The notes beneath the pieces are model-generated. The model did no database searches. It was given only the letters and a program-made list of their open reading frames with translations, and was not told the origin of the DNA. A stretch of 60,056 nt of DNA from Clostridia bacterium (GTDB lineage Bacteria > Bacillota > Clostridia > Oscillospirales > Acutalibacteraceae), in the NCBI GenBank assembly GCA_017544665.1, contig JAFYDS010000052.1:1-60056 (forward strand), written 5' to 3'. The position numbers were made by a program, and so were the translations under genes. Numbering within the stretch: the stretch's first letter is position 1; each line of letters begins with the position of its first letter. Positions 34,716 through 60,056 of the stretch are shown piece by piece.

Positions 34716-34739
34716 AAGCACTCCCCTCCCTTTGCTTCT

Positions 34740-34768
34740 ATTGTAGCAAGGGACGCAGGGGAAGTCAA
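34740..34768 (-). promoter_or_regulatory. Promoter of the alpha-galactosidase gene
   Basis: TTGACT (34763-34768), 17 nt ending TTGC, TACAAT (34740-34745) on the minus strand. Confidence 0.85.
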
Positions 34769-34805
34769 TATAAACACGGTTTTTCCTCCGTGACAGGCAT
34801 AAACG

Positions 34806-34876
34806 AACAGAGCGCAGGTGGTTTCCTGCGCCCTGTTTATATAAGAATCGTTTGTTTTCCTTTTCGTTCTTCGCGA
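34806..34876 (-). repeat. Partial extra unit of the structured repeat
   Basis: A 71-bp partial unit next to copy 2. It holds a terminator-like hairpin (34806-34837) and the A-rich arm followed by CGCGAAGAAC in the same order as 35019-35090. In the minus-strand RNA the stem has a G-U pair where the plus strand would have A opposite C. Confidence 0.75.
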
Positions 34877-34890
34877 CGGAAAGGGCGGAT

Positions 34891-35092
34891 GGATTTCGAT
34901 GAAGACGGCGTTTTCTTCGCCCGAAGGCTGTACTGGTGTACGCCGAGGGCGAAAAAACGCCGAGAAAAGAAAAACAAAAACGGGTATGGGCGAAGCCCAT
35001 CCAAAGACACCATAAAAGAACAAAGCGCAGGTCGTTGTCTGCGCTCTGTTGTACAATGGATTGATTGTTTTTCTTTTCGTTCTTCGCGAAAT
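34891..35092 (-). repeat. Structured intergenic repeat, copy 2
   Basis: About 202 bp matching 10073-10270. It contains the TTCGCCC/GGGCGAA hairpin (34914-34952), the hairpin ATGGGC/GCCCAT with loop GAA (34986-35000), complementary A-rich and T-rich arms (near 34962 and 35066) and a terminator-like hairpin at 35019-35050. It sits between the end of the giant gene and the promoter of the next gene, in the same orientation relative to both genes as copy 1. With the extra unit it fills most of the 463-bp gap 34716-35178. Confidence 0.88.
35019..35050 (-). terminator. Secondary terminator-like hairpin in repeat copy 2
   Basis: On the minus strand AACAGAGCGCAG, 8-nt loop, CTGCGCTTTGTT, then CTTTTATGG. 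One pair is G-U in this strand and would be an A-C mismatch in the other. Confidence 0.6.
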
Positions 35093-35106
35093 GCATCCGC
35101 CCCGAG

Positions 35107-35139
35107 AAAAGCCCCCTGACTCTTTCGAGCCAAGGGGCT
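35107..35139 (-). terminator. Intrinsic terminator of the giant gene
   Basis: On the minus strand AGCCCCTTGGCTC, loop GAAA, GAGTCAGGGGGCT, then TTTC. It lies 40 bp after the stop codon of the giant gene. Confidence 0.85.
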
Positions 35140-35178
35140 TGTTGTGGTTTATGCGTGTGTTTTACCTTTCAGCTTTGC

Positions 35179-38100
35179 TCAGCGGCCGAAGCGGAAGAGC
35201 TTCGCGAAGAAGTTCCGGATCGCCTGGATCAGCTTCTGGAACCAGTTCAGCGACTTCTGGGTGTTTTCAACCGTCTGCTGAACTTCTTGCTGCGCTTCGT
35301 GGTATTCTTCATCCGTACCAACGGTTTCTTTCCAGACGCCCGTGATGGATTCCATCGCATCCGCGATGCCTGCGTACATGCAGGTGTCGGGTCCGTCTGC
35401 CAGAGCCTGGAAGATCCGCTGGAGAATCGCCTTCACGTTGTTGACGTTGCCGTCGTAGGCTTCGTTGATCACGATGCCGAGACCGAGCAGTGAGAACAGC
35501 GAGGAGATGATGATTTCAGCCACGTGGTTCGCGTCGCAGGCGTTGAACATTTCGTTCACGCCGTAGCCGACCGCCTGTTCAGCGCCGCCGCCCGGAGCCA
35601 GATCGAAGACGTCGGACAGCCATCTGACGAGGGCTTCTTTGTTCTGCTGTTCGCCGAACATCTTGAGCAGCCAGGTCAGGACCAGCGTCAGCGTGTCACC
35701 CTTATCGGCGATGATCTTCGTCTGGGTGGTCTTCTGCGCTCTGCCTTCGTAGCCGACCGGATAGTTCGCGATGTAGGACGGAAGCTCGGACTTGCGCATC
35801 GCAACCGCGAAGGAGTTCGCAGCCTGCGAGCGGGACGTCGCAACTTCTGTCGTACCGTCAGCACCCTGACGCGCCAGCTTCGTCCAGTCGATTTCCGGAA
35901 TGTGGAAGCCGTACTTCGCGCCGAGGACATTGATGCCGATCTCGAAGCTGTTGAGCAGCTTGGACAGGTTCAGTTTCTCGGACAGGTCGATGTTGAAGAG
36001 TGTCAGGACTGTGTCAACGATCGTGAAGACCGGGGACAGCAGGTTGCGGACCGCCAGATAGAAGCCTTCGTTCGATACGAAGTATGCGAATGTCGGCAGG
36101 ATTTCTGCGAGTCTGTCAACCGGCTTGCCGAGGATCCAGTCGATCTGGTACGCCAGACGTTCCAGAATGTAGCCGAGCAGCTGCGTCTCGTCTGCCGCGT
36201 ACGCGGACTTGTAAGCCGCCAGGTTCTTGACATTGTTCGCGCTCAGGCCGAGTGCCTCAAGCAGCGGGATGATCGCGTAGTCATAGCCGTTGGAGCCCTT
36301 GATATCCACGATACCGAGCAGGTTGAGGGTTTCGCCCTCACCGATCAGCAGCAGTTCGAGGATGCCGTTGAGCGGGGTCAGGACCATAGCCAGCGTCTTC
36401 GCGAAGTTCTTGAGGTCGCCGTCTCTGAAGCCCCAGTTGGTGCCTTCGAAGGCCGGGACATCCGCCCACGAGGTCTTGCCTCTCAGGATCCGTTCACCGG
36501 TCGTCAGGCCGATGCGCTGATAGACTTCGTGGAAGTGTCCGACTGTCAGATCCAGTCTGCCGGCGTCGTCAAGATCCTTCAGCGTCTCAAGGATGCCGTT
36601 GATCTGTTCTGTGCTGATCAGCGGTACCACCTTGTCAAGGATCGTGTTGACGTTCGCGTTCGTCGCGATCTTGGTGTAAACCAGATCCTTCAGCGAGCCG
36701 ACATTGGCCATGCCGAGAATCTTGTTGATCAGGGCGTCAGCGTCTCTCGCGATGATGTCGGCGTTCGCCTTGGTCAGCGTGAAGTACGCTCTGTAATCGA
36801 AGCCGAGCGCGCCTTCCAGCGTGTGGTTCTGGATCGGGATGTTGACCGGATCGCCGAACAGACCGATGATCAGGTCGATGATCTTGGTCGGATCTTCGAT
36901 GATGTCCTCCACGATGCTGGACCACGGTTCCTCAAGCTCGATGCCGAACGCGTCAAGGATCGCGTGGACGTTGTCGGCGGTCAGGATCGCCTTCAGCAGG
37001 GCGATCAGCGAATCCGCCTTGTCGCCGACGACGTTCTTGTAGGTCGCGGTGTGCAGCGTGCTGTCAGCGTTGACATATTTGTCATACTTCGTGTCGAGCT
37101 TGCTGTTCACCTTGTCGCAGTAGCCGTCGTTGTCTGCGTCAGCCGCAGCCATCGCAGCCATTTCGAGCCAGTCGAAGTCGATCGTCAGGCCGAGCGGCGT
37201 GCCGTTTACCTCAAGGTTCGTCAGCAGGTTGGTCAGCAGGTCGTTGAGATCCTGCGCCTTCAAGGCGATCGAGATGCCGGCCGGGACGCCCGGATGCTCA
37301 ACGCCGATGTAGGTCGCGAGACCTTCGCCGCCGGCGAGCATATCACCGAGGTTGACCTGGATGGCGATCGGGATCAGACCGTCAACCGCTTCGATGAGGT
37401 TGTTGATCGGGGCGATCAGATTCGTGATGATGAGTTCAAGGTTGTCTTCACCGATCAGGTAGAAGAGGTTCGCAAGAATCGTCAGCAGCGTATCGATCGG
37501 TTTGTCAAGGATCTTGTCGACCTGCGCGAACAGCATGTCGAGGATCGGCTTCAGGCAGCTGCCTGCCGTGGATGCCGCCGATTCGTACTGGGCCTGAGTC
37601 TTCGCCTCAATGCCGAGTGCTTCAAGCAGCGGGATGATCGCGTAGTTGTAGCCGTCGCCGCCGAGGATGTTGATCTCGTCGAACGCGGTGATCTTCGCAC
37701 CGTTGTGCGTGCCGTCAGTCTCGAACGGGACGCGTTCCGTACCACCCATCAGGATGATCGCGAGGATACCGTCAAGCGGCTTGAGCATGTCGCAGATCAG
37801 GTTGCCGAGGTCATCCAGGTCGTCGATCTTCCAATCGAACTCGCCCGGATTCAGATGGAACTGTGTCTTCTGGACGGAGGTGGTGTGTCCTTCGTCGTCG
37901 GTCACTTCTTCCATCACCGGCGTCAGCGTGTACGGCGTCTCGTCGATCGTGGTCGACGGCATGCCGGCTGCGCCGTAGAAGGTCTTCTCTTCGCCGTCCG
38001 CCGTGTAGGTGTAGACGTACTTCAGATGGCTGTTGGCAACGTCAGCCCAGGTCTGAGACGAGCCGATCAGGGTGCTCAGTTCGCTGCTGAATGTGCCAGC

Positions 38101-41100
38101 CGTGAAGGCCTGCGGGTTGATGTCGATGCTTGTCAGGTTCGTGAACTGTCTGACATAGGTCATGACCATATCGATGGTGTCTGCCGGGAGACCAGCGAGC
38201 AGCGGGACGATCAGGTTGATCAGCGTGCTGCCGAGGTCAGCGTCAGCGATCAGACCGTAGACCAGTTCCTTCAGGTCGGTCGCTTCGATGCTCGGGATGA
38301 GACCGAAGATGGCCGGGATCAGCGCGTCGATCTTGGAGAGAAGGTTGTTCAGCTGTTCACGCTTGTTGCCTTCGCCGTCCAGACCGCTCGAAATCTTCGC
38401 AAACGGATCTTTCTCGTTGTAGGCCCTGTATTCGACAAGGTACTTCTTGAGCAGTTTCGTCAGGAGTCCGACCAAATCGTTCTGCTTGCCGGCAAGCGAC
38501 ATGATGATGTTGTAAACCGTGTTGGGTTCGCCTTCGTCATTCGTCGGCTCGATATTGAGCATATCGGCGAGAATGGTCAGGAAGTCTTCGCTCAGGACCG
38601 TGCCGAGGACGAACATGATGGTGTCGCCCAGTTCGACGTGCCACATCTTCTGCGGCGTGTAGGCGACGGTGTCGCCGATCGCGCTGCCGTCGTCATACTT
38701 GATGGCGGCGTACGCGAGGTCGCGGAAGAAGGTGTCGGGCAGCGCGTTGATCGCGCCGACTTCTTCGCCGGTCTCCTGATCCGTCACGGCGATCTTGCCG
38801 AGGAAGCCGTTGATGAGATCGATCAGCATCTTGCCGTTGTTGCCGGCGATGTTGATGATGTCATCCAGGCCGTAGCCGACGCCGTTGATCTTGATCAGAC
38901 CCTTGAGCAGGTTGTTGACCTGATCTCTGGTGATGATGTCGCTGACTGCGTCGAGGATGCCGAGAACCGGAGCGATCAGGTTCTGGATCGCCGGCGCGAC
39001 CGCGTCATTGGCGATGAAGTACGACAGGTTGCCGATGACGATGAGCAGCGTCTGGAACGGCGTGTCGCCGAGGCTCGGAAGCAGCGTGTCGACCAGATAG
39101 CCGATCACGTTTTCGAGGGCTGCGACACCGCTGTCGTTCGCGGCTGCCTTCTCTACTGCGCCGAGCTCTTCAAGGCCGAGACCCTTGAGCAGCAGCGGCA
39201 GGAGCGAGCGTTCGTATGCGTAACCGGCGGTCAGGCTGGTCACTTCCGTTCCGTTGGCGCGGATCGTCAGATCCTGGCCGGTCAGGACGAAGGAGAGTAC
39301 CGGATCGAGCGGCTTGAGCAGCGCGATGATCGCGTCAAGGAAGCCGTCCTTATCGGTGATGCCGGAGAAGATCGGGTCAACCGCATACTGCATGTTGCCT
39401 TCTTCATCTTCGCCGAGTTCGGTGACGTGCGCGGCCTTCACATCAGCCCACGTTTGTGCAGTGCCGATGTAGGCGATGACCGCATCGTTACCGGTTGCCG
39501 CCGCATAAGCCTGCGGGGCAAGGTTGATGCCGAGCAGATCGTTGAGCGCCGTCGTCAGGTCGCCGGACAGGAAGCCGCCGAGCGCCGGGATGAGCGCCGC
39601 TGTGATCTTATCCATCATCTCTTCGGTGAAGAGCTTGGAGTTCAGCAGGTAGTCGATGATGTCGGCAAGATCCGTCTTGTTCGCCGCGGCAAGATCCACG
39701 ATCAGTTCGGGCGGGTTCTCACCGGCCGCAATGATGTTGATCACTGCCGGCAGCGCCTTCTTGATGACTCTGTCGAGCGCCTGGATCGCGTCGTCGAGGC
39801 CGTCGGGCGCGCCGAGGTCGACTTCGTTCAGGTGCTTGAAGATGTACAGGAAGTTTTCGACGTCATAGCCGCCGGTCAGCAGCAGGATGACGGCAACGAT
39901 CAGGTTGTTGATCGCGTCCGGATTGTCGAGGATGTCTTCAATCGCCGTACGGATGCTTTCGTCGAGCGTATCCGGCAACAGCGCAAGGATCAGGTTTCTG
40001 ATCTCCGCGGTGTTATCCGGCGTCAGCAGGACGTCAAGCAGCGTGATGAACGTATCGGTCGGATCGCCGATGATGTTCTCGTACGCCTTGAAGCCTTCCG
40101 CAGCCTGTTCCTCAGCAGTGTAAGTCTGTTTTGTTTCAATCTTCAGCAGTTCAGCGCCGTTGGTGTTCTGTTCGGACGCAATCTTCGTCTTCGCCATCAT
40201 GGCGGCCACGGTGTTCCAGTTGATGTCAAGCGACAGGGAGATCGTGGTACCGTTGATGTCGAGCGAGCCGATGAGGCTGTTGACCAGTTCGATCAGCTTG
40301 TTCGGGGAGACGTCGATCGAGACGCCCGCCGGAATACCGGTGTGGGATTCGCCGAGGTAGGTCGTCACGATTTCGGCCGTCTCGCTGCCGAGGTTGTCAA
40401 GGTCGATGTTGATCGCGATCGGGTAAACGTCGTCGATTTCAACAGCAAGCTTGTTGATCGGGGCGAGCAGGTTCTCCGCGATCGTGTTGATACCGTCGGA
40501 GCCGATGAAGTAGAAGATATTCGCAAGTTTTTCAAGGAGCGTATTGACAGGCGCCGCCAGGATTTCCTTCACCACACCGACGACTTCGCCGAGGATGTAG
40601 TTGACGGACGAGCCTGTGCTTGCGACCTCCGCCTTGTACTCGGCGTAGGTCTTCGGCGCGATACCGAAGGCTTCGAGCAGCGGGATGATCGCGTAGTTGT
40701 AACCGTTGCCGCCGAAGACACGGATGTCAGCGCGGTCATCGGTCTCGTCTTCGAGGACGATGATCTGGCCTTCCTGAAGCAGGACCTTGAAGATGATGTC
40801 GAGCGGGAGCAGGAGGTCGGAAGCGAAGTTGACGATCGCATCGAGGTTATTCAGCTTCCAGTTGAACTCGTCGGCTGTGACATTCATCTTGGTCTGGCGT
40901 ACCTGGGCGCCGTCGTCCATGAGCGTCAGATCATAGGTCTTTGCGGTTTCGCCTTCGCCGAGGGTGATTACGGTTTCGCCGGCCTTCGCGTAGTAATCGT
41001 AGGTCTTCGCTTCCGCACCCTCGCCGACGGTGTAGGTGTAGTGATACATCGGAACCAGCGTGTAGGTACCGGCGTTGTCACCTTCTTCGATCGTGTAGGT

Positions 41101-44100
41101 CGTCTCTCCGGCCGGGCCGTAGTAGTCGACCGTCTTGGCGTCTTCACCGGAGCCGATTGTGTAGGTGTAGTAGACCACCGGGCTCAGCGCGTAGGTCGCA
41201 GCTTCTTCGCCTTCACCAATCGTGATGGAGGTTTCGTCCGCGAGGTCGCTGTAGTAGGTGACTGCCTTACCGTCGCCGTCGGTGTAGGTGTAGACGTACT
41301 TGGTGTATCTGTTGGCAATCTGCTGCCATGTGGTCGCGCTGCCGATGAAGTTCTTCAGCTCGCTGCCGAAGTCATCGTTCGCGAAGGTCTGCGGGTCAAG
41401 CTTCACGTCGATATTCGTGAGCTGCTTGACATAGCCGAGGATCGTGTCGAGGTCGATGCTGCCGGATTCGATACCCGCGAGTACCGGAACGAGCAGGTTC
41501 ATCAGCAGGTTGCCGAGGTCAGCCTTCTTGACAAGATCGGTGACGATGCTTTCGAGCGATGCGCCGTCGCCCATCACCAGGCTCAGGATCACCGGAATCA
41601 GGCTGTCGAGTTCGACCAGCGCGTCGGAGATGTTCTCCTTCGTGATCTTGTTGCTCTTCGGCTGGACGGCGATCTTGGTGATCTCCTCCTGCTCGATGGT
41701 GGTGTAATCGATGGTGTAGTCGTTCAGCAGCATCACGATGATGTCAACGACTTCGTTCTGCTTACCGGCGAGACCGGTGACGATCTGGCCGACGTCGGAA
41801 TCTTCGTCGATCTTCGCGAGCTTCTTGATCAGGTCAAGGAACTCTGGGCTGAAGGCTGTCTGCAGGATGTACATCAGCGTATCAGTCTTGTCGATGTTCC
41901 ATTCGAAGACCTGTTCGTTCACTGCCGGGTTGGACGGATCTGTGACGACGATGCCGTACATCGCGATCTGCTTGAAGAAGTCGGACGGAAGTTCGGTCGT
42001 GACCTGAACCGTGGCGCCGGTGCTGTCTTTCAGTTCAATGCCCTTGAGCAGGTCGTTGATCAGCTTCACAAGACCGCTGCCGTCGGTGCCGGCGATGTTG
42101 ATGATGTCGTCAAGGCCGTAGCTCTTGTCGCCGATCTTCACATAGCTGGCGATCAGATCGTTCAGCTCGCCGCGCGAGACGATCGCGCTCAGCGCGTTGA
42201 CGATGCCGAGGACCGGAGCAAGCAGGTTGTTGATGACCAGCGCCACACCGTTGTTCGCGATGAAGAACGATGCCTGGGCAAGGACCTCAAGGATCGTGGT
42301 CAGCGGCGCAGCCTCGATCTGGCCAACCAGATCGAATACGCCGTCCACAATGTTCTTGAGCAGGTCGTTGCCGTTGTCGCTGGACGCAGCCGCGTCAAGG
42401 TCGACATTGAGCGCCTTGAACAGCGGGATCAGCGCCGTGGTATAACCGTTGCCGCCGTTCAGGACGAGTTCATCAATCAGGATCTTGATGCCTTCGCCGT
42501 TGAGCAGCCAGCCGAGAACGGGTTCTGCCACTGCAGTGATTTCATAGATGATGTCAAGGAACGAATCCTTATCGGTGACATTCCAGTCGTACGTGACGAC
42601 CGCCTTGGTCTGATGTTCGGTGCCGTTGACCATGACCGGCGTCAGATCGTATTCCACGTCGTCAACCGTGATCTTGGTCTTGTCGGCGGTATCGAAGGAG
42701 ACCTCAGTGGTCACAGCGTCGTCGCCTTCGCCAACCGTGTAGGTGTAGTAGTACAGCGTCTCTTCGCCTTCACCGGTCGTCTTCTGGACCTTGTTGTAGA
42801 TCGGGGTCAGCGTGACGGTCTCGCCGTCGATTTCGGCGGTGGTCGCGTCGGCTTCCGTCGTGTAGTACTCGACTTCTTTCGCCTCGTCGCCTTCGCCGAC
42901 GGTGTAGGTGTAGCCATACTGTTTGTACTGTTCAGCAAGAGCCGCCCAGGATTCTGCGTCGCCGATGAAGTCGGCAATCTGACCGCCGTTGGCTTCGGAC
43001 ACAGTCTTCACGCCTTCAACGGAGATATCGATCCGCAGGATTTCCTTCACGATCTTGTTGACCAGTGTCAGGGTTTCGTCGTCCATACCGCCGAGCAGGT
43101 TCACGAGCAGGCTCATGATCATGTTGACCGTCTTGTCGTTGAACGCGAGGTCGTTCAGCAGGTAGTTGACGATGTTTTCGATCGTTGCGTTATGGTTCGT
43201 GCCTTCATAGATCTTCGTGATCAGTTCGGCCGGCTCTTCCTGCGTGGCAAGCAGTTCGATGATTTGCGGAACCGCTCTGAGCAGGATCTTGTCGAGCTTG
43301 TTGATCGCGCTGGTGACATTCGCCTTCTTCGGTTCCAGACCGTGCTGGCTGTTGTAGTTGTAGTTCGCAGCACCGAGGAACTTGTAGATCATTTCTTCCG
43401 GTGTGAATCCGTAGTCGCCGGTCAGGATCTTGATGATCGTGTCGACGAGGATGGCCGGGTCGTTGATCGCCTTGCGGATAATCGGCTGGAGCGCTTCAGG
43501 CAGCGTGGTGAGGTCGAAGCCGATCATGTCGAGAATCGCTTCGATGTTCTCCTTCGTCAGGAGCATCTCGGTGATACCGATGAGGGTATCTGCCGGGTCG
43601 CCCTTGATGTTGCGGCCGAGCGTGCCTTCGCTGATATCCCAGGCCGGGTCAACCTTCGACGGGAAGTACTCGATCTCGGTTGCCGAGCCGTCCACCGTCT
43701 TCGCGGACTGCGCGGCGAGCTTCGAGAAGCGGAATTCAAGCTCAAGGCCTTCGACATACTTCGCAATCAGAGAGCCGATGATGTCTTCGAGCGTGATCGC
43801 GTCGAGGTCGATCGTCAGACCGACGTTCGCTCTGTTCGTCTGGACATCGGAGCCGAGCCAGAAGTTCGCGATGGACGCGTCTTCGTCGTCGGAGAGCAGC
43901 GCCTTCAGGTCGATCACGATCGCGATCGGCAGAACGTCTTCGATCGTCTTGATGATTTCGCTGACCGGAGCGATCAGGTTCGAGACGATCTTGGTCAAGC
44001 CGTTCTTGCTGACCGTGTAGGCGAGGTTCGCCACAAGACCGAGGATGAAGGAAATCGGGTTTTCAAGGTTCGTGTCGCTCAGAAGTCCGAGGATGGACTC

Positions 44101-53100: not shown

Positions 53101-56100
53101 GATGATCGCGCTGATCAGGTTCGGGTTGTCAGCTTTCGCCAGTGCGGCGAAGACTTTGCCGAGCAGGCCGTTGATCACGTCGTCGTTGCAGGCATACTTC
53201 TTGATCAGCGTGTCAACAAGGTTGCGCAGCGTGATGTCGTCTTCTGCGGTCAGGCCGAACTTGGCGAACAGACCGGTTTCGTCTTCTTCGGTCGCCGGAT
53301 CGTCCTGCTTCGTCAGCGTTTCCTTGAACAGATTCAGGACTGTGCCGACCAGGTTGTCAAGGTTATCGATCGCCGCGGAGGTCTTCACGCGGGAGATCTC
53401 GGAAACAAGGTTATCCTTGTTGACGGGGACTCCGTCTTCTTCGGCCGCGTCTTCGACGGTCTTGTTATAGGCAAGCACTTCGTCGAGCGTGTCGTAACCG
53501 GCGTCTTCATAGAATTCGTAGTGTGTCTCGCTCTCGATGTCGGCGAGGACGATCTCTTCGCCGCCGTCTACCGTGTAACCGGTAAGCAGTTCGACGAGGA
53601 CCTGAACGAGAACGTCTTCGTTCTGGAACACGTTGGTGATGATCTCGTCAAGCATCTCAGCGTCTTCGCCGTTTTCGTCGGTGATGTCATAGCCGAGGAT
53701 ATTGCCGAGCAGTTCCTTGATGGTCGTGTTCTGGAAGATGAAGTTGAGCAGCCACATCAGGACTTCCGCCTTGGAGACGGGGACCTGACCCTTGTCGGTG
53801 ATCTTCACGCGGACGTCGGAGGCCGTTCTCTCGTCGCCGAGGGCAGCGATGGTCTTGAAGAAGTTCTTCAGTGCGTTGGCTCTGTTTTCAATGGCCGTTG
53901 CGTCGTTATCGGGATCGTCGTCGTTGAGCATCGCCTTCGCCGCCTGCTCGACGGCCTTGTTGATGAACAGGACGATCGAGTAGTTGTAATCGCCCGTGTC
54001 GTCGTCGCCGGCCTTGAACAGCGAGCTCATGTCGATCTGCAGCGCGCTGAGCATCTTCAGCAGGGACATGGTGAAGTTCGGTACGAAATCGTCGACATAG
54101 TGGAACGTGATTTCGCCGGTTTCTTCATCCACTTCGTACTGCGCCTGCAGCAGGTTCTGGATCGAGGACCAGTCGGTCTGTTCGTCGCCGAGGATCATGG
54201 AGCTGATACCGTCAAGGACGGCCGCCAGGATCTCGTCGACCTTCACATAGAGGATACCCGCGGGGATATCATAGTCAGGCGCGATGTTCCAGCCGATGAT
54301 GTTTGTCAGGGTGGTGATCGGGATCAGCAGGTTCTGGACCCAGGTGGTCAGACCGTCGCCCCAGATGAAGTAGGCGAGCGTCGGAAGCGCTTCGGCGAGG
54401 GTCGAGATCGGGCATTCGACCAGGATCTCGATGAAGTTGAACAGGTAGTCGACAAACTTGCCTGTCGCTTCGCCCATGCCTTCGGGCTTCAGAATCTTCT
54501 TGCCGTTTTCGTCAAGTACAAAGTTGTTGCCGTTTGTCTGATAGATCATCTTCAGATATTCATCTGTGCTGATCAGGTTCTGCGGGATCTGTTTGTCTGC
54601 CGGCTTGCCGGTGTTGAGGTGGTCGGCGATCGTCTGATTGCCGTCGCCGCCGGTGTACGGCTCGCTGTTGACGTAGTCGAGGATCTGCTGCAGGCCGAAG
54701 GCGTTCAGCAGCGGGACAAGGACGTTATCCCAGGCGTTGTTGCCTTCGATACCAAGACCGCCGTTGAAGAGCTTCAGATCGTCGCCCGCAAGGAGCATCG
54801 AGAACAGAGAAGCAAACGGTTCAAGCAGTTCCCAAAGGTTGGAAACGAACTTGTCTTTCTTGTCGCCGAAGGTGGCGTCAATGCTGCCGGAGTCAATGCT
54901 GTCAAGCGCCCACGACCACATCGGCGTCGCGTCGGTGTACTTAATCTTGAGCTTCGCGACGGTGAACTTCGCGTCTTCGTCGGCCGGCGTGGTCACGCTG
55001 ATGTCGCCGTTCTCGAGGATGGCGATCGCCTTCAGTTGATCGTACTCGCTGACGTATTCCTGCTGCTCGCCGTCCTTATCCTTATAGGTATAGACGAAGT
55101 TGCTGCCGCTCTTTGCGCGGATCTTACCGGAGGCGATGAGGTATTCGGTGATGATCGTTTCGGTCGTACCGGCTTCCTCGTCTTCCTTCTCGGTCGATTC
55201 ATAGATGATGTTGTTCTCTTCGTCGAACATCATCAGGCCGTTGTCGTCATAGGCGTACTTGTAGCCGCTGGCGTGGTTCGCGAAGATGTTCGCCCAGCTG
55301 AAGTCGACCTTTTCGCCGTTCTTGTAAGCGAAGACGTTGCCCGCTTCGTCGGTGGTGGTCGTCATGTTGCCGCCGCTCTTGTCGAAGCCGTAGGACAGGA
55401 ACTCATAGAACTGCGTCTTGGTCGTTCCATCCTGCTTGTAGAGCCATTCGGACGGCATCAGGCCGAAGCCGGCCGCGTTGACGATCTTGATGATCGCGTC
55501 GATTTCGTTGAAGTCGATCGTCTTGCCGAGCAGGTTCAGCACGGCGTTGATGATCGTCGTGAACATATCGTCGACGAAGAGGTTTTCGTTGCAGACGCTT
55601 TCCACGAGCTTGAACAGGCTGTCGCCCTGGGTGTACTCGTAGTCGATCGGCATGGTGATGATGTCGTTCGAGACGAGCGCGTCAAGGACGCTCGGAACCG
55701 CCTTCGAAATGACATAGTCGATGTTGGCGATGGCGTTGTTCACGCTCTGCTCGGTGAACTTGTCGGCCGTCGAAGCCCAGTCGTAACCGGAGTGGTCAAT
55801 GGAATAACCGCCCTCGTCTTCATACTTATTATATTGTGTGACTTCGGCTGCGGTCACGCCTTCGACGCCGTTCATGTACTCATAGAAGTACAGGTTGCCT
55901 TCGTCGGGCGTGTAGTCGGTCAGCAGGTCGATCAGAAGACCCGTGACGATGTCGACGCGCGTCGCCGAGTAGTTGTGGTTCGCACCTTCCAGAATCGTCG
56001 CGGCGCTCTTCAGCTTGGTCACGACGTTCGTGATGATGTTCTGGATACGTTCGTTGGATTCCACGTCATACGCCGTCTGGATACCCATATTCTCGAAGAC

Positions 56101-59100
56101 GCCCATCAGCGTGTCGCCGAGGAAGGTGATCAGTTCGGGCGAAAGGACCTGACGCAGCAAGGTGATCAGCAGCTGGCCCGGCGTGGAGTAGAAGTAGGTG
56201 AACTTGACGTTGGTGCTGGTGGTGTTGTAGTAGCGCTTGGTCGGCAGACGTTCCGCACCCTTCGAGCTCTGCGCCGCAAGGGCGGCAAAGTCGAGCATCT
56301 GGATGTACGTCGAACCCACGTTCTCCTCTGCGCCGGTGATGAGCCGCGCAAGCAGGTCGTTCAGCAGCGTTTCAAGGTCAAGGTACTTTTCAAGCAGGCC
56401 CTGGATGTCGAGCGCGATGATGCGTTCGAGCACCGGATCGGCGATCTTGAGCAGCTGAAGCACGGGCGCGATCAGGTTTTCCACCGCGATCGCAAGGTTG
56501 TTCTTGGAATCGGCCGGCGTCTGCGGCTTATACATGAAGTAAGCGAGGTTCGGCAGCGCCGAGGCAAGCACGGTGATCGGCTTTTCAAGCAGCGCCTGAA
56601 CGCCGGTGGTACCGAACAGCAGGTCGCCGATACCGGCGAAGAGCTTGCCGAGCGGGGAATTCGACATCTTCATGAAGCGGTTGCCGTTCTTGAGGTCTGT
56701 CGTATTCCAGTTTGTGGTATTGTACGTGCCGATGTTGTAGCTCTTGCCGTACACGTAGTTATTGAACTGGTACTGATACACGCAAGCGCCGGTATCCTTC
56801 AGGCCGACAGCCTCAAAGATCGGGACGATCGCTTCCGCATAGCCGAAGCCGCCGCGGATGGTCAGCTTGTCGGCGATGGTGATCGGTTCACCCGCGAGGA
56901 TGAGGTTCAGGATCGGAGCAAGCGGCTGCAGGAACGCCATCAGGAAGCTCGCCAGTTTTTCATAGCGGGCTCTGCCTGTCGCGTTGCCGGCGCCGAGCCA
57001 GTCGATGTCGTCTGTCGCTCTGTTGAAGCTCATCTCCGCCCAGGAGAGGTCGTCGATGCTCTTGCCGAGCTTGGTCGCCTGACCGCTGATCCAGGTGCGG
57101 ATCGAGGTGCTGCGGACGTTCGTCGCCGCCGCCGGGCCGGTGCCGCCTGCCGCGTCATAGAAGCCCTTCGGGGAGATGTCGAGGTCGATTCTTCTCGTGA
57201 GGGTAACCACACGTTCCAGAATCTCGGTGTTCGCAATCAGCTTCGAGAGAATGCCGACATTGTCATTGATTTCGCCGGTTTCCGGATCGGGTTCGGTGTC
57301 GGGGATATGCGAACCGAACAGGAGATCCATCAGAATGTCAATGAACTCGTTCGAGCAAAGGATCTGCGAGACCGCTTCTTCGAGCGTGTCGATTTCACCG
57401 GAGATGATCCGGTTGACGATATCGGTCAGGCCGTATTTCTCGATCAGCGGCTGCAGCGCTTCGAGGTTGCCGAGGATCGAGCCGAGGAACGGGACAAGGG
57501 AGTTGACGATCGTGTCGATCGATTCCGCCGCCGCGTCCGCCTTCGCGATCCGCAGTTCGTCGGTGTTATTGCCGTTCTTGCTAAGACCGTTGTCGGAAAG
57601 GAGGGTCGTCAGATATTCGCCGAGCTGGAAGTTGGTGTTCCACTTCTCGTTCGCCGTCACGACGGTGAGCAGCTGATTGCCTTCCTTATCCTTGAAGGAG
57701 CTGTAGTTGTTGTAGATGTAGTCGATAAACGGATCCGTTTCCACTTTATACGGGTTCAGCAATTCGATCAGGATCGCCATCACGTTGTCGGCGTTGCCGT
57801 CAAGGATGCGGCTGATCATACCGAGCGTATCGGTCGGCTCCGCGTCGGGATTGTCCGGATCGGGCTCGCTTGTCAGCAGCCCGTCAAGCAGCGGCGTGAT
57901 CTTATACCAGGTGCCGTCGTCCGCGATCCAGCGCAGCAGCTCGAGCAGCACAAGACCGGGCCGCGTGGCGACCTTCCAGTGGGTATAGCCGTCTTCCAGC
58001 GCCTTGCTTGTGATCGTACCACACGCAAGCAGGCGGTTGACAGGTAAGGATAACGGTACTGCGGTCGTTCGGTTGTTTCCGATCGGGTTGTTCGCACCTG
58101 TATTCGTCTTGGAATACAGCCAGCTGATCAGCCCGTCGCCGAGCAGGTTATAGAGCGTCTGCGTCAGTGCGCCGCAGCCCTTGAAGTAATACTTCGTGCC
58201 GGCGCCGTTCACCTGATAGAACGCCGGTTCGGTTTCGGACACTTCGCCCGTTTCCTTATTGTAGGTCATCAGGACCTTGTCGTCCTCAAAGTTGGCAGTC
58301 GGTTTGGTCGTCGTCGCCGTCGCTTTGAGCAGACCGCCGACCACGCCGTCGATACCGGTGGAAAGGTCGATGCCGACCTTGTCGCGCAGGAGGGCTTCAA
58401 TATCAAGGACAGAGCCAAGCTCCAGCGTATAGACGTTGATGCCGAGAACGGCAAACTTGATCTTGATGTTCTTCAGCTTCGGCACGAGCTGGTTGTCGTC
58501 AAGCATCGCGAGCAGGTTCGGGAGAATGTCCGCGATCGTCTTGACGGGGTTGACGAAGAGGGTGCCTTCCATCCACTGGATCAGCGGCTGGAAGATATCC
58601 TGCCACAGCAGACGGCCGTAGCCGTTGGCGCTGCTGATAACGTAGCACTGTTTGAAGGCCTGCTCTGTCGACGTATGGCTTTGAATCGTGCTCTTGGAGG
58701 CATAGTTGTTGATGCCGAGCAGCCAGTAGAGCGGCTCGAAGAGTCTCGTATACAGGTTGTCGCCGTCGAGCGTAAGGGCAACGTCCAGACGGTCGGAACC
58801 GACGCCGACGTTGGATTCGACCGAGGAGCTCGCGCCGGTCAGCGCCGTACGCAGCACCGCGCCCATCGGACCGAAGGCCGCCGCAAGGGCAGAGTAAAGG
58901 GTATTCGGCGTGCGTGCGTCGAGTTTCCAGGTGTTCTGCGGGTCAGCTTCCATCGCGGACCAGTCAACAACATCGCTTTGGTTAACATCAAACGGATCAA
59001 CCATAGTGCCACCACTGTACAGACCGGATCTTGAGGTCTGTTTAGCAGTTCGGCCAGTTTTGCTCCAGAAGGAGACGTCCTGATTGTGTTTGCCGAGAAG

Positions 59101-60056
59101 AGCCGCCGACCAACACGCCGCTTTGTCACCGAAGCGGGTGGCGGTGTTCATCGCGGTGATGACGTTGGAGTAGTTATACGGCAGATGGGAGCCGTCGTAG
59201 AACATATACCAGCCGACCTGGTCGTCGCCGCGGTCGCGGGTACCGAAGAGGTGCGGGGAGACCGGGAGACCGCGGCGCAGAATACCGGAAAGACCCTGCA
59301 TGTAGATGTAGGCGACCGTGATGTCGATCGGGTCTGCGTTGGTCCAGACGCCGTCGGTGATCATGCCGCCGATCGCGGGATAGACCGCCTCGAAGAGGGT
59401 GTTGAGCAGTTTGCCGTTATAGAGCATATCCACGATCAGGTTGATCAGGAATTCGCGCAGGTTCTTGACGTCGTCGCCGACCCGGACCGTCTTGTTCTGG
59501 CCCGTGGTGGTGTCAAGGAAGGTATAGGCCTGCTTCCATTTGCCGAGCATGCCCTGCTTCTGCGGTTCGCCCGTTGCGGGATCGATGACCGGTTCGCCGG
59601 TCACGGGATCGGTGACGTCCACCATGATCAGGGAGTCGAGGATCGAACCGACGTCGTTGGAAACAAGCACCGCGTCAAGGTCGTTGACCGCGTTGTCAAG
59701 AAGGGTCGAGACCTGCGCGTCGGTTGCGCCGTTCGCATAGCTCGTCAGACCGACCGCGTTGACCGCTTCGGTAATTTTATCGACCTTGATATTGTTGACA
59801 GCCGATCTCCAGCCGTAGGTCTGCTGGCTGATGCCGCCGACGCCGAACAGGTACTTCTGGATCTCGATGTCCGCGCCGGCGCCGCTGCCGCGGGCGGTGA
59901 TCAACGAGCGCAGATTCGTTTTGAAGGAGCTGGCCTGCGAGTAAGCCGTACCGGCGGTGTTATAGAGGTTCTGCAGCGGGCTTTGCGTCGGCTCGCCGGC
60001 AGCGGCGACGTAGTGCGCCGTAGTGCTCAGCCAGTTGAACAGGTTCGCCGGGGTCA
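35179..60056 (-). CDS. Giant modular repeat protein, at least 8,291 aa (5' end outside window)
   Basis: One open frame fills 24.9 kb and stays open to the right edge, so the N-terminus, any signal peptide and the promoter are not seen. It is built of at least 13 homologous modules of about 455-805 residues. Each module has an anchor like GGNGYNYAIIPLLEALGI, a hydrophobic segment like PVDTLLTILANLFYLIG followed by a (V/I).NLLAPV segment, and a DTL..LL..ILS block with a LL..Y.V segment. Each ends with a TWADVAA.Y box and, in most, acidic Tyr/Thr-rich units (YTYTVGEGDDAK). Helical, solenoid-like segments seem to alternate with beta linkers. An EF-hand-like loop (DADHDGKVTWSE) occurs in module 5. 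The C-terminus is a basic amphipathic tail (WFQKLIQAIRNFFAKLF) with no LPXTG, dockerin or S-layer domain. No family recognised; probably a surface or secreted structural or adhesive protein. Confidence 0.85.
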   Translation of the reverse strand, partial: TPANLFNWLSTTAHYVAAAGEPTQSPLQNLYNTAGTAYSQASSFKTNLRSLITARGSGAGADIEIQKYLFGVGGISQQTYGWRSAVNNIKVDKITEAVNAVGLTSYANGATDAQVSTLLDNAVNDLDAVLVSNDVGSILDSLIMVDVTDPVTGEPVIDPATGEPQKQGMLGKWKQAYTFLDTTTGQNKTVRVGDDVKNLREFLINLIVDMLYNGKLLNTLFEAVYPAIGGMITDGVWTNADPIDITVAYIYMQGLSGILRRGLPVSPHLFGTRDRGDDQVGWYMFYDGSHLPYNYSNVITAMNTATRFGDKAACWSAALLGKHNQDVSFWSKTGRTAKQTSRSGLYSGGTMVDPFDVNQSDVVDWSAMEADPQNTWKLDARTPNTLYSALAAAFGPMGAVLRTALTGASSSVESNVGVGSDRLDVALTLDGDNLYTRLFEPLYWLLGINNYASKSTIQSHTSTEQAFKQCYVISSANGYGRLLWQDIFQPLIQWMEGTLFVNPVKTIADILPNLLAMLDDNQLVPKLKNIKIKFAVLGINVYTLELGSVLDIEALLRDKVGIDLSTGIDGVVGGLLKATATTTKPTANFEDDKVLMTYNKETGEVSETEPAFYQVNGAGTKYYFKGCGALTQTLYNLLGDGLISWLYSKTNTGANNPIGNNRTTAVPLSLPVNRLLACGTITSKALEDGYTHWKVATRPGLVLLELLRWIADDGTWYKITPLLDGLLTSEPDPDNPDAEPTDTLGMISRILDGNADNVMAILIELLNPYKVETDPFIDYIYNNYSSFKDKEGNQLLTVVTANEKWNTNFQLGEYLTTLLSDNGLSKNGNNTDELRIAKADAAAESIDTIVNSLVPFLGSILGNLEALQPLIEKYGLTDIVNRIISGEIDTLEEAVSQILCSNEFIDILMDLLFGSHIPDTEPDPETGEINDNVGILSKLIANTEILERVVTLTRRIDLDISPKGFYDAAGGTGPAAATNVRSTSIRTWISGQATKLGKSIDDLSWAEMSFNRATDDIDWLGAGNATGRARYEKLASFLMAFLQPLAPILNLILAGEPITIADKLTIRGGFGYAEAIVPIFEAVGLKDTGACVYQYQFNNYVYGKSYNIGTYNTTNWNTTDLKNGNRFMKMSNSPLGKLFAGIGDLLFGTTGVQALLEKPITVLASALPNLAYFMYKPQTPADSKNNLAIAVENLIAPVLQLLKIADPVLERIIALDIQGLLEKYLDLETLLNDLLARLITGAEENVGSTYIQMLDFAALAAQSSKGAERLPTKRYYNTTSTNVKFTYFYSTPGQLLITLLRQVLSPELITFLGDTLMGVFENMGIQTAYDVESNERIQNIITNVVTKLKSAATILEGANHNYSATRVDIVTGLLIDLLTDYTPDEGNLYFYEYMNGVEGVTAAEVTQYNKYEDEGGYSIDHSGYDWASTADKFTEQSVNNAIANIDYVISKAVPSVLDALVSNDIITMPIDYEYTQGDSLFKLVESVCNENLFVDDMFTTIINAVLNLLGKTIDFNEIDAIIKIVNAAGFGLMPSEWLYKQDGTTKTQFYEFLSYGFDKSGGNMTTTTDEAGNVFAYKNGEKVDFSWANIFANHASGYKYAYDDNGLMMFDEENNIIYESTEKEDEEAGTTETIITEYLIASGKIRAKSGSNFVYTYKDKDGEQQEYVSEYDQLKAIAILENGDISVTTPADEDAKFTVAKLKIKYTDATPMWSWALDSIDSGSIDATFGDKKDKFVSNLWELLEPFASLFSMLLAGDDLKLFNGGLGIEGNNAWDNVLVPLLNAFGLQQILDYVNSEPYTGGDGNQTIADHLNTGKPADKQIPQNLISTDEYLKMIYQTNGNNFVLDENGKKILKPEGMGEATGKFVDYLFNFIEILVECPISTLAEALPTLAYFIWGDGLTTWVQNLLIPITTLTNIIGWNIAPDYDIPAGILYVKVDEILAAVLDGISSMILGDEQTDWSSIQNLLQAQYEVDEETGEITFHYVDDFVPNFTMSLLKMLSALQIDMSSLFKAGDDDTGDYNYSIVLFINKAVEQAAKAMLNDDDPDNDATAIENRANALKNFFKTIAALGDERTASDVRVKITDKGQVPVSKAEVLMWLLNFIFQNTTIKELLGNILGYDITDENGEDAEMLDEIITNVFQNEDVLVQVLVELLTGYTVDGGEEIVLADIESETHYEFYEDAGYDTLDEVLAYNKTVEDAAEEDGVPVNKDNLVSEISRVKTSAAIDNLDNLVGTVLNLFKETLTKQDDPATEEDETGLFAKFGLTAEDDITLRNLVDTLIKKYACNDDVINGLLGKVFAALAKADNPNLISAIIDIVAGAGYDLTPQKVKAAVPQLASVIGNSKKWPQVAKNHLVYVYTYTVTVGGNEIKKEYTNSAANLTSAEIDGETYELTPAFDPEYKYVDAENNEYWNTAVGLTEITVGEGDDAVKVAVEPAYEADGVTQIKRDSDVRATTVEVNVTWGLADADDPLQAIVDLVWALVQPLTPIFEMLFTGNRLTLYDKINIEGLEGYQTVILPLLRALAIDKLYKADETKVHTDSSELYLEGGLISAEDFMKTVYGTDATINNVDGIWTLIEDPNTNNNNYKAILQTLVDAIWALVESLCDRPVNTLLIMLPHLARFLISDGADKLVTNLLAPVTTITQKIEPIYKIDVLGMIKDALRGIIAQDEEEPETGSSDAPGAPSGNGSPASTTAQYMLDVIDDADGADAASADAAIAEIFEPLLEDENGEVVTAPTPNLAPRRAPANNGAGDDTDDNATFLDIIQQLIDSISISIGKDEETGVETKLVLSEILPDTIFIDIASCAWLAAHQSMKEYAEFTEIETITRGEGENQVIIKNRRDGILKRDPVDDPDTPEVEDTYVVDRETVLLEVLNWIVFNDGIRDVAEGLLKINYEKLGAGKELGESFDLDDPNTDYLMAVLIYSIFDDAEPVERLLIDLLSWYKVEYQPARVSSEYPELEARIAAEEGIDYDAAGINKDELEALPSQIDTLIGGIIPAVIGLLPEGTLGGLTLSGSTTQELVENLLVGLMKDSTVDGEFKAGLATTLVALLVNAIGGNETITNVIGMLPDIVDGLDLTLSHFMGDAENPTNFYSYFIPYDADHDGKVTWSEAYEGLKTVKIYEDTTIREAGDDEKAVTEGNTITITAKDNATDVHYVITVTESGNTKTVVTVNGEGEFVSKTVTETTGATAWLYTYNAEDAITGCTAYDVETGKIYKTAKDDETNTYSIVYEQMLDDNDEPMFDGDNNPIYDETKPVYEYEINLTGTNSFGIETYDDVLALISQILTPLVPVLRMLLTEEDLILLDGIHITGGDGYDRFIIPVFEALGIPNLIDKKAFKQLDDTAYARKILDYVDALIQQIVGSPIQTIVGALPQLVWFIYTDGLAQGIEQFVAPLITLLDHVNDVTGAEVEISKANVNSEGNKKYVALDLYAIILGFIKNNDTLKEIIPNIDNINDIYDLVDNLLTCDALEHLLYNLLEEKDIDLGDIPVIGLFEYIIVKTCQIDDVETIRYYSSDYVTTEGDRRTMKGVVSTKADTLMAIVGDTILGGDLVESLIEQISGKPVSDTVKQILDAVTGENRYVIFKILLKYFNEYDVKNMLLEYLSFDRLTYDYDTYIDGNEVVGSGDKQRKVRRAIKKLDKTLLAAIPELLPILKENETFKAILKNVPDGASLKDAVDAILQQYVINDEMANTIIGLVFGLLAENGDSIDGIAPLVDQIVGLNIAPYAYADESAAPFKPFLNARIDAALALNPTKEVEGETVDRTREDVSWSELINPSDYASHFAYVTYEFDRDEDGKIILDANDNPTYKLVDGNKVVVKDEDGNIIYNDYYTKLAEEISTKKTDVEISGYTVTVDLIPVIRYQYTVPGEGGAEDTIETVYKPEGTTTITVGEGDDAVEYALTQVAHYTYVNADDETVDYYGPIGMTTVTVGTDPDAVTYNLHQEEASVQSKKVVLDEAWGIDAATTMDAKVSAFVDAIYGLVKPLELVLNFLLRGDNIEILQAEGAEKGVLTLLGNTGYENAIYPLLKALAIDDQYLTTPAAYMSGKGTSVTLSALTDAIFGLVEQLENGPVEYLLTLLPTLSYFLASNGVEVVVRNLLAPALALVNIAEPILGPILEKLINENIHDILEKYLPITAGKKDNEGHFILDTNGKKIYTLNDILGIAGEDGSNIVRILNDLLTGIIVKTIDDESIEVFQPLNSTFFTDYVRHTINIPQQQSGDKVYYFFTQNGEEVKMAESEYNMGNYPAVDYSRYVIRKGQFTVDIADSLVFLLETVLSNNALDSVNKIVDKKVESNDTKALIGGILETIINGENNGLKLTDIITKLFEGYEITYVSLNGKLITPDHSAYENLDPELQTQVAPIPGKLDTVISEAVKILLPSLSTLIPAESQTGIVKTLLDIVDQIDADPSLEMTLPNLVNALLNKLAFTDDTMSLIVDLLVGLLAGVGEDTMGTIATVLGYVKNILGIDFGITPYDYKDSFLADYIGADVTEDTTWADVAAQYTRYGYTYTVPAEGEDGEPTKVEVYLTGADETTITIGEGETAKTYALTKIMEEVEVEEGVTEMVHKTKVDSKKSDYYDGFKWGTGEGDAYTQIDKAGIIHNLASILEPLADLFKVVLQGKTFTAIRTGNKVTYMAIDPDDATVNGLPSGKDSGTDPGQDGTELGNGYLEIRGSNGYSQALIPLLEAFGLRKANGDMLSQEDFNTQKTTVEDMLSYLINEVLLIVDHLAANPASFLATNLASVIYFLANDGLYNIVDNALAFVNSLLAQIEDFYEIQIHLDMLKLEDTVTDEIDEETHQPKVTKGLINTILDAINSGKAEDEQLNLDITKQMLYDLAGQLGDYETYTTYREGADTGLINDLDQKVTFDGAEIVSGSVASIVGQPEYFLVGLLNFVKESEEIKDLLEGLELEGVVAEVVDNILNADDLNGLVKIIVKLFNKYVLTYQLIPDTDPALEKQAIAYKGVTGTAQDRTVTKEQTTQAITTLDKLVSPVLRLLDLGSLSDLIGDKLYSDALVSTLVDLLVGLLGNMDEDTWKTIDMVLGLVKDIVGMDIDISVQTYSAKASLAPYFSGLTVNEDTTWADVAAKYVKYAYTYTEGTGEDAKKIEIYLAANDATTAEVGEGEDLHTVTVTPVFEQVQKTSGEGEEKLYYYTYTVGEGEAAVTTEITLNKAGETKYTVGEGDDAITYDLKPVMIDSDVQKTKVDSSDAVSWFDGCTTNAQKQARFIEIVCDILAPADDLLKLILAGGVYNFDGSTYGDSLSAFREINIMGGSGYNYAIIPLFEALGIDPITQAEYNTRVENEPALKYILESILGLLSDTNLENPISFILGLVANLAYTVSKNGLTKIVSNLIAPVSEIIKTIEDVLPIAIVIDLKALLSDDEDASIANFWLGSDVQTNRANVGLTIDLDAITLEDIIGSLIAKYVEGLELEFRFSKLAAQSAKTVDGSATEIEYFPSKVDPAWDISEGTLGRNIKGDPADTLIGITEMLLTKENIEAILDMIGFDLTTLPEALQPIIRKAINDPAILVDTIIKILTGDYGFTPEEMIYKFLGAANYNYNSQHGLEPKKANVTSAINKLDKILLRAVPQIIELLATQEEPAELITKIYEGTNHNATIENIVNYLLNDLAFNDKTVNMIMSLLVNLLGGMDDETLTLVNKIVKEILRIDISVEGVKTVSEANGGQIADFIGDAESWAALAEQYKQYGYTYTVGEGDEAKEVEYYTTEADATTAEIDGETVTLTPIYNKVQKTTGEGEETLYYYTYTVGEGDDAVTTEVSFDTADKTKITVDDVEYDLTPVMVNGTEHQTKAVVTYDWNVTDKDSFLDIIYEITAVAEPVLGWLLNGEGIKILIDELVLNGGNGYTTALIPLFKALNVDLDAAASSDNGNDLLKNIVDGVFDLVGQIEAAPLTTILEVLAQASFFIANNGVALVINNLLAPVLGIVNALSAIVSRGELNDLIASYVKIGDKSYGLDDIINIAGTDGSGLVKLINDLLKGIELKDSTGATVQVTTELPSDFFKQIAMYGIVVTDPSNPAVNEQVFEWNIDKTDTLMYILQTAFSPEFLDLIKKLAKIDEDSDVGQIVTGLAGKQNEVVDIIVMLLNDYTIDYTTIEQEEITKIAVQPKSNKITKENISDALVELDSLIPVILSLVMGDGASLESIVTDLVKKADLGNLLMNLLVPVLAGIESGSIDLDTILGYVKQLTNIDVKLDPQTFANDDFGSELKNFIGSATTWQQIANRYTKYVYTYTDGDGKAVTYYSDLADETSITIGEGEEAATYALSPVVYYTYTIGSGEDAKTVDYYGPAGETTYTIEEGDNAGTYTLVPMYHYTYTVGEGAEAKTYDYYAKAGETVITLGEGETAKTYDLTLMDDGAQVRQTKMNVTADEFNWKLNNLDAIVNFASDLLLPLDIIFKVLLQEGQIIVLEDETDDRADIRVFGGNGYNYAIIPLLEAFGIAPKTYAEYKAEVASTGSSVNYILGEVVGVVKEILAAPVNTLLEKLANIFYFIGSDGINTIAENLLAPINKLAVEIDDVYPIAINIDLDNLGSETAEIVTTYLGESHTGIPAGVSIDVSPNKLIELVNSLIGSLDINGTTISLSLDINWNTVAAMMAKTKIASEQNTNGAELLKIETKQTYTAEEQAAEGFKAYENIIGDPTDTFITLLDVLLTPDNTAEIRNLILALLPDTLDESIRTAIEDILDNPDAINNLIVAVILLLTGGYDVENFLYIFKHLNEVDLGAPDGLDDAIQALDRVIKKALPAVINIIAAGENPPELIVDLAAANKTDLADIIDYLLNSKLFTEEMMDKITAALIPALGGFLSGDLTTALNDLLGINLAPQAYAAATGNDAVIAYIGTAQTWADVKAAHVTELGEDEEGNMQYAVDPIFSGITDKDGFLDAIIALLKPLDPVLSFVLTGQDLTIRANGTEVTSLTAGYAYERSLLPLLLKGLGLEELGAVEKAAANDSGVAALENVIGYLVDTLLPSLGDTPFQTLLIVIGNLSYFIANDAVAPAIQNLIAPVLGILDAVSDIITRDQVNNLLKGLIKINGVGYGLDDIINIAGNNGKMLIDLINGFLGKIAVTDQETGEEVGAINALPDTFFRDLAYAAIKYDDGSAIGDTVAYTPQKMWHVELGDTIMFVLGTVLSEDFLTILADMLNIEPTNDEGEPNTVYNIIMSLAGKQNDLVGLLTKLLKKYLVEYRAYNEKDPFAKISSGLDGEGNKREQLNNLLSKIDALIPAIFGLIPSIEATDLKELVYGLIADADLGSTLINLIVPLLAGLPADTIDMVMTYVRQFTNLTSIDINPQAFTAGTFSSELSTLIGSSQTWADVANSHLKYVYTYTADGEEKTFYGAAGMPSTTIDETPYTLTPVMEEVTDDEGHTTSVQKTQFHLNPGEFDWKIDDLDDLGNLICDMLKPLDGILAIILMGGTERVPFETDGTHNGAKITAFDEINILGGDGYNYAIIPLLEALGIEAKTQAQYESAASTAGSCLKPILDMLFAQVDKILDKPIDTLLTILANLFYLIGEDNLELIITNLIAPINNLIEAVDGLIPIAIQVNLGDMLAGGEGLATYIGVEHPGVPAGISIALKAQDLNDLLTNLLTNLEVNGTPLGLTIDFDWLEMAAMAAADADNDGYCDKVNSKLDTKYDKYVNADSTLHTATYKNVVGDKADSLIALLKAILTADNVHAILDAFGIELEEPWSSIVEDIIEDPTKIIDLIIGLFGDPVNIPIQNHTLEGALGFDYRAYFTLTKANADIIARDADALINKILGMANVGSLKDLVYTKIATNANVNTILDKVVPLISTEQINGILETLKDLDDAGRLDLTVGHFHEVYQRIGLTTGERILRGKTSWADVPAFEGTNWGFRDGDLKNFAKTLAMVLTPLNGILELLLIGEGETLNLLGIVDIKGSNGYDYAIIPLLEALGLSANNVKNLAAYKSAYAADETQLLGYILERLAYQIDWILGKPVDRLAEILPTFAYFVSNEGFYLAVRNLLSPVFTIVDTVLTLFNIDLSEKLNLSKLLNSFEIGINVLGAKYGFHIPEIDWTKLARQGADGTTEVATSRSQAANSFAVAMRKSELPSYIANYPVGYEGRAQKTTQTKIIADKGDTLTLVLTWLLKMFGEQQNKEALVRWLSDVFDLAPGGGAEQAVGYGVNEMFNACDANHVAEIIISSLFSLLGLGIVINEAYDGNVNNVKAILQRIFQALADGPDTCMYAGIADAMESITGVWKETVGTDEEYHEAQQEVQQTVENTQKSLNWFQKLIQAIRNFFAKLFRFGR
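40895..41310 (-). repeat. Three tandem 42-residue acidic beta units in the giant protein
   Basis: About 126 nt each, encoding YTYT.G.GEDAK, YYGPAGETTYTI and EEGDNAGTYTLVPM-type segments. Single or double copies of the same unit occur near 37870-38030, 42640-42930, 44430-44780, 46350-46530, 48190-48580 and 52690-52980. Copy number per linker runs from none to three. Confidence 0.8.
50700..50760 (-). other. EF-hand-like calcium loop in the giant protein
   Basis: Encodes DADHDGKVTWSE, which fits the 12-residue EF loop rule: Asp at 1, 3 and 5, Gly at 6, Val at 8 and Glu at 12. Looser D.D.DG motifs occur near 48655 (DRDEDGKIILD) and 37130 (DADNDGYCD). The loop sits where other modules have the TWADVAA box, at the start of the beta linker. 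Confidence 0.6.

Follow-up and report, generated by a model that had tools for sequence, protein, structure and literature searches.

The window, the whole 60,056-base stretch of DNA that was analysed, carries on its minus strand a single reading frame for a giant protein of 13 diverged modules. With a probability of roughly 0.6, we interpret this protein as a Sec-exported, C-terminally membrane-held, long helical rod that serves the cell as a shield or spacer and whose modules come from a two-module ectodomain linked to an ABC transporter. Specifically, the signal-peptide-like start suggests that the giant would leave the cell via Sec, and an amphipathic helix at its C terminus would hold it at the membrane. 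From there it may project outwards as a long rod of mainly helical structure, acting as a shield, as a spacer or in contact. Its origin would lie in tandem duplication of modules, beginning with a membrane-anchored ectodomain of two modules whose gene neighbours that of a MacB-type (type VII) ABC transporter, the giants having retained export and C-terminal anchoring, yet standing alone. Because the module tree is unrooted, the direction of this change, from the short form to the giants, is a guess. Giant anchored surface proteins were already known; neither the module family nor the C-terminal tail turned up in the libraries and literature surveyed, so that the module would be undescribed and the anchor possibly so.

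A maintained gene for thirteen diverged modules

The frame spans positions 35179-60054 (minus strand) and comprises 8,291 sense codons plus a TGA at 35179-35181. It stops at the right edge because the contig stops there, the window being the entire contig C249 of an assembly that consists of 259 contigs and is estimated to be 74% complete. A sequence-only reading of this DNA had described one frame of at least 8,291 codons running off the right edge and had argued for a maintained gene, and both statements stand. Comparison with a close relative (L044, from the Ruminococcaceae MAG RUG13155) yields a dN/dS of 0.275 over 4,179 codons, and values of 0.19-0.38 in each of nine windows along the alignment. 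Two further pairs of sequences give 0.087 and 0.136. The differences are distributed 661/460/1370 by codon position in the sense frame, and amino-acid identity is 0.78 in the sense frame versus 0.62 in the antisense frame.

An open frame of 7,507 codons on the opposite strand (35524-58047, plus strand) is a codon-usage shadow and not a gene. Its openness results from the sense frame having only four TTA, CTA or TCA codons among 8,291; the relative L044 has one in 4,223 and its opposite strand is likewise nearly open, and a homologue from the same genus (genome G003) has 69 in 9,396. Since the antisense strand is also open, openness alone is weak evidence for coding, and selection and conservation are the strong evidence. 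The 35179-60054 frame is a real, maintained gene under purifying selection and no chimera. The sequence-only reading had itself named an assembly chimera as what could undo its claim; this candidate fails, as independent assemblies hold collinear homologues.

A hairpin that follows the stop codon (35109-35140, minus strand; 14-bp stem, GAAA loop, short T run, z -3.6) is a probable intrinsic terminator. A terminator had been proposed earlier at 35107-35139, and the hairpin is indeed present there, although a consensus terminator scan does not include it in its minus-strand list. Just downstream on the same strand is an alpha-galactosidase-like gene (33435-35096; Melibiase_2 and Melibiase_C). 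It has no counterpart among the first five listed frames downstream of the giants in each of 20 relatives. Downstream neighbours show no broad conservation among the giants, and therefore offer no operon clue to function.

The 5' part of the gene probably resides on contig C251 of the same assembly. The N terminus of the G003 homologue, used as a query, has one match in the window's own assembly, and this lies at the end of C251, in a frame that is open at the contig end and starts with AAGGAGG, ATG and the signal-peptide-like sequence MKLGKKALSCLLAIMMIVTSVSVCFSSLAA. The last 65 nt of this frame match the first 65 nt of the window's minus strand (59992-60056) at 64 positions, and the single mismatch may be the cause of the contig break. 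Provided that C251 adjoins C249, the full-length giant would have about 8,939 aa. The start of the G003 homologue is similar, consisting of AAGGAGG, ATG and a sequence, MKLGKKALSCVLAIMMIVSSVSVCFSVLGA, that also resembles a signal peptide. Calls of signal peptides and transmembrane helices throughout come from visual inspection or a loose rule on hydrophobicity, and not from a trained predictor. The 5' end and signal peptide that the earlier reading had set out as the things to look for would thus lie on C251, the signal peptide by inspection, and the two signal-like starts make it likely that the protein lies outside the cell, as had been suggested.

An independent profile count of the module core arrives at the same 13 diverged, homologous modules that had been claimed from the letters alone. 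The cores lie on the minus strand at 58351-58956 (module 1, profile A2), 56284-57042 (module 2), 54136-54939 (module 3), 51934-52683 (module 4), 49681-50262 (module 5), 47482-48183 (module 6), 45520-46305 (module 7), 43756-44421 (module 8), 42034-42609 (module 9), 40258-40893 (module 10), 38788-39387 (module 11), 37210-37860 (module 12) and 35866-36456 (module 13). All 13 are reciprocal best hits, in the same order and at 38-59% identity, of modules in the G003 homologue on contig C13, which is complete at 9,396 aa and has 15 modules. Modules 1-9 correspond to modules 1-9 of that protein and modules 10-13 to its modules 12-15, leaving its modules 10 and 11 as extra. In the module tree, modules 1-9 and 13 of the window protein each group immediately with the corresponding G003 module, and 10-12 fall in less resolved groups. 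This pairing by position indicates that the duplications mostly predate the split of the two genomes.

Modules 12 and 13, modelled together by AlphaFold2 as the C-terminal two modules (25 alignment rows; pLDDT 74, pTM 0.58), are mainly helical with small beta hairpins, and so is the model of a short relative, P0054 (41 rows; pLDDT 80, pTM 0.67). The linkers between modules hold YTYT-type repeats. The sequence-only reading had suggested a long fibre-like or solenoid structure, into which such modules might stack.

The C-terminal tail and its other carriers

The protein ends in an amphipathic, aromatic and basic tail, SLNWFQKLIQAIRNFFAKLFRFGR (35182-35253, minus strand), which we propose as a membrane anchor. 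The giants strongly conserve a C-terminal segment of the form SLNWFQ(R/K)LI..I(K/R).FF.K(I/L)F. The hydrophobic moment of the tail is in the top 0.4% among windows of the giant protein, and in the AlphaFold2 model the tail is of low confidence, mostly with pLDDT under 50. Among 597 scored candidates are 26 giant relatives, which have 8-14 modules and are 4,637-8,000 aa long; 22 of them end in the tail, one is cut before its end, and three (P0073-P0075) have by inspection a transmembrane-like helix with a charged flank in the tail's place, as do the short relatives. The exchange of tail and transmembrane-like helix argues for a membrane anchor. Two mid-sized module proteins (L074 and L075, in G009 and G142) end in KVRFYNYDWQK, a third type of C terminus that is neither tail nor transmembrane helix.

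A profile made from the tails of family members only (A5) has 21 matches in the window's own genome at E 10 or better, two of which belong to the module family. Eighteen of the 19 others (L082-L093, L115-L121) are no more than 11 residues from a stop codon; E is 0.05 or better for eight of the 19 and weaker for the rest. The loose signal-peptide rule is passed by 16 of these 19 proteins and failed by L086, L093 and L117; the internal match L090 passes, and for L088 the start to which the rule was applied is doubtful. Pfam scans of eight tail carriers identified one BspA-type LRR protein, one DUF6273 protein and two that are weakly alpha/beta hydrolase-like. The exact reversal of A5 has one match in this genome (E 0.05), 413 residues from its stop. 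An earlier reversed control (A9), in which 8 of 10 rows were exact reversals, has five, with a best E of 0.05, and three of these (one in C69, two in C210) are C-termini that resemble the tail. In G003, four of seven non-giant tail matches are within 11 residues of the stop, with two being identical 276-aa copies.

A broader tail profile (A10), built partly from the A5 matches in the window's own genome, has 27 matches in that genome and at least one in 31 of 150 genomes of the taxonomic family, compared with 8 of 198 genomes sampled elsewhere in the phylum. Within the family, 22 of 30 loci (the best loci of 30 of the 31 genomes, some of them module proteins) are no more than 10 residues from the stop. 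Outside it the same is true of three of nine loci, each of the three lying in a short frame (49-148 codons). Genome G015 has 12 A10 matches and no module match, which indicates that the tail is independent of the modules. We consider this FF-rich amphipathic tail to be a candidate C-terminal retention signal. Neither the sharing of the tail nor the short relatives beside an ABC-transporter gene had figured in the sequence-only reading.

Family, short relatives and competing explanations

No Pfam or NCBIfam family reaches its cut-off in the 8,291 aa, no PHROGs family matches at E 0.01, and a sequence search of the PDB returned nothing below E 0.12, in agreement with the earlier statement that the protein belongs to no recognised family. 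The domains that the sequence-only reading had reported as missing are likewise absent: Pfam and NCBIfam scans find no SLH, dockerin or cadherin domain in the giant, and its C-terminal sequence has no LPXTG followed by a hydrophobic stretch and a basic tail. Of 150 genomes sampled from the taxonomic family, 24 match the module profile, the window's own genome counted, as do three of 295 in a sample of the order (its own genome, one family member and one genome from another family). Where a source names the matching proteins, it lists them as hypothetical and assigns them to Acutalibacteraceae, Ruminococcus, Faecalibacterium or Clostridia. Twenty-two named loci, some of which share one genome, come from uncultured Oscillospiraceae, Ruminococcaceae, Ruminococcus or Clostridia, and 20 of them retain the C-terminal two modules and tail at 34-82%; L056, which runs off both contig ends, and L065, which is the contig of L049, were left out of this comparison. 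For one giant relative, P0084, with 10 modules in 6,029 aa, a precomputed Pfam match to PF26098.1 is on record. A paralogue in the window's own genome (L036; G000:C136, around 9244-9246) is split by one in-frame stop into pieces of 1,695 and 702 residues, and is either a pseudogene or an assembly error.

The giant's conservation, coupled with its signal-like start, would also suit an adhesin or a cell-to-cell contact fibre whose modules bind the host, plant fibre or other microbes and do not form a passive shield. The modules within a protein are diverged, yet any one position is conserved from genome to genome, as would be expected if positions had distinct ligands, and a ruminant gut site is named in 11 of the 22 locus titles. 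Pfam and NCBIfam detect no known binding domain in the giant, however, and no ligand is indicated. We regard this explanation as unlikely, though the best placed of the alternatives to a shielding or spacing rod.

The smallest module relatives are two-module proteins that are predicted to be membrane anchored. The one in the window's own genome (an 872-residue frame) has a signal-like start and a C-terminal transmembrane-like helix followed by KRKKKK. At least nine of the 150 sampled genomes contain full-length matches to the short form (G000, G003, G043, G056, G057, G060, G076, G123 and G138), a lower bound given that at most six candidates were scored per genome; the G056 match is in two pieces. 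In eight of the nine, the next same-strand frame downstream of the short gene encodes a protein with ABC_tran and FtsX domains that is 62-72% identical to the G003 copy, whose gene begins right after the stop of the short gene; G123 has a short relative without such a gene. Examples of short relatives directly before the MacB-type gene are at L037:2690-5305 and L035:8093-10960 (both minus strand). In the neighbour proteins scanned with Pfam (two of the eight), ABC_tran and FtsX are on one chain. The ABC protein matches the PDB entry for MacB, 5gko, at E 8.8e-69 with its best stretch at residues 2-299, and scores 293 bits against the NCBIfam MacB equivalog, for which the cut-off is 966. Because the genes adjoin, the short proteins are likely to be extracytoplasmic partners of a MacB-type (type VII) ABC transporter. 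Against this count G123 and more distant ABC relatives (about 50% identity) in genomes without modules, none of the eight inspected having a module gene beside it. In 41 aligned short relatives, D, E, N, T and two C residues are invariant and no His, Lys or Arg is, which argues weakly against an enzyme. The two invariant cysteines (C168 and C323 in P0054 numbering) may form a disulfide.

Given that the short relatives adjoin the ABC_tran and FtsX gene in eight of nine genomes, the giant might likewise be an accessory of a type VII transporter, acting as a scaffold in the envelope or a hydrophobic conduit alongside a MacB-like pump. The giant loci make this improbable: none of 127 frames downstream of giants at 20 loci matches the ABC_tran and FtsX protein along its full length, with three (L047, L048 and L059) matching its ATPase part at 25-31%, and 16 of 24 module-bearing genomes yielded no ABC orthologue (62% or more). 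Far less probable still is that the gene is mobile, for instance of the phage tape-measure kind, as could be read into the long helical frame and a sub-threshold match to Pfam TMP_3 (E 0.095), against which stand the signal-like start, the PHROGs result and the lack of any phage domain in ten neighbouring frames scanned. Last comes an assembly chimera or pseudogene, for which the contig ending inside the gene and the incomplete assembly might speak, and which the collinear homologues and the low dN/dS in all nine windows render the least credible of all.

Extending the preferred reading of an anchored rod, we tentatively propose, and hold to be somewhat less probable than that reading itself, that an undescribed FF-rich amphipathic C-terminal retention signal takes the place of transmembrane anchors on dozens of exported proteins unrelated to one another in one family of gut Clostridia, where it would also hold cell-surface rods of up to about 9,400 residues derived by duplication from the ectodomain partner of a MacB-type transporter. 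If the tail is a retention signal, it would predict which exported proteins remain surface-bound in a family of Clostridia that are mostly uncultured, and would constitute a small portable anchor. An unnamed class of very large gut-bacterial proteins gains an anatomy, a family and a testable localisation, and the link of the short relatives to a mechanotransmission ABC transporter provides an entry point to module function.

Comparison with known systems

As described in PMC5985334, MacB-like transporters spend ATP on work outside the membrane; the same source places many Gram-positive adaptor genes in operons with macB homologues. The short relatives resemble such MacA-type adaptors in being predicted membrane-anchored ectodomains whose genes adjoin an ABC_tran and FtsX gene. 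They differ in having a C-terminal anchor and two helical modules, and in the absence of an HlyD/MFP adaptor (biotinyl-lipoyl) domain from the two short proteins scanned.

C-terminal sorting tags, among which LPXTG is also counted here, have a tripartite build of motif, transmembrane segment and basic stretch. GlyGly-CTERM (PMC3237569) and PEP-CTERM (PMC1569441), two such tags, share with the tail the property of being a short C-terminal region common to unrelated exported proteins of one genome. In contrast, the tail lacks the tripartite build and would be an FF-rich amphipathic helix with no evident processing motif.

Surface proteins form one of two main classes of huge bacterial proteins in the account given by PMC11573180, and the giant, at over 5,000 residues, belongs to the same size range. 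It differs from members described there in that Pfam finds no NRPS/PKS domain (no condensation, adenylation or ketosynthase domain) and no dockerin.

Ebh of Staphylococcus aureus has many helical repeats, which are FIVAR/GA three-helix modules. PMC6548404 describes Ebh as a giant surface protein of about 1.1 MDa that, together with two other giant proteins, shields adhesins, with a shorter Ebh having a weaker effect. As read from its sequence, the giant resembles Ebh in size class, secretion signal (present by inspection), proposed C-terminal anchor, predicted helical repeats and likely surface coverage. It is from another bacterial family, has no FIVAR/GA module by Pfam, and in most members of its own family the proposed anchor is an amphipathic tail and not the transmembrane and cytoplasmic kind. 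The giant is excluded from the Ebh class by module and anchor, and we hypothesize that the likeness between the two is one of action.
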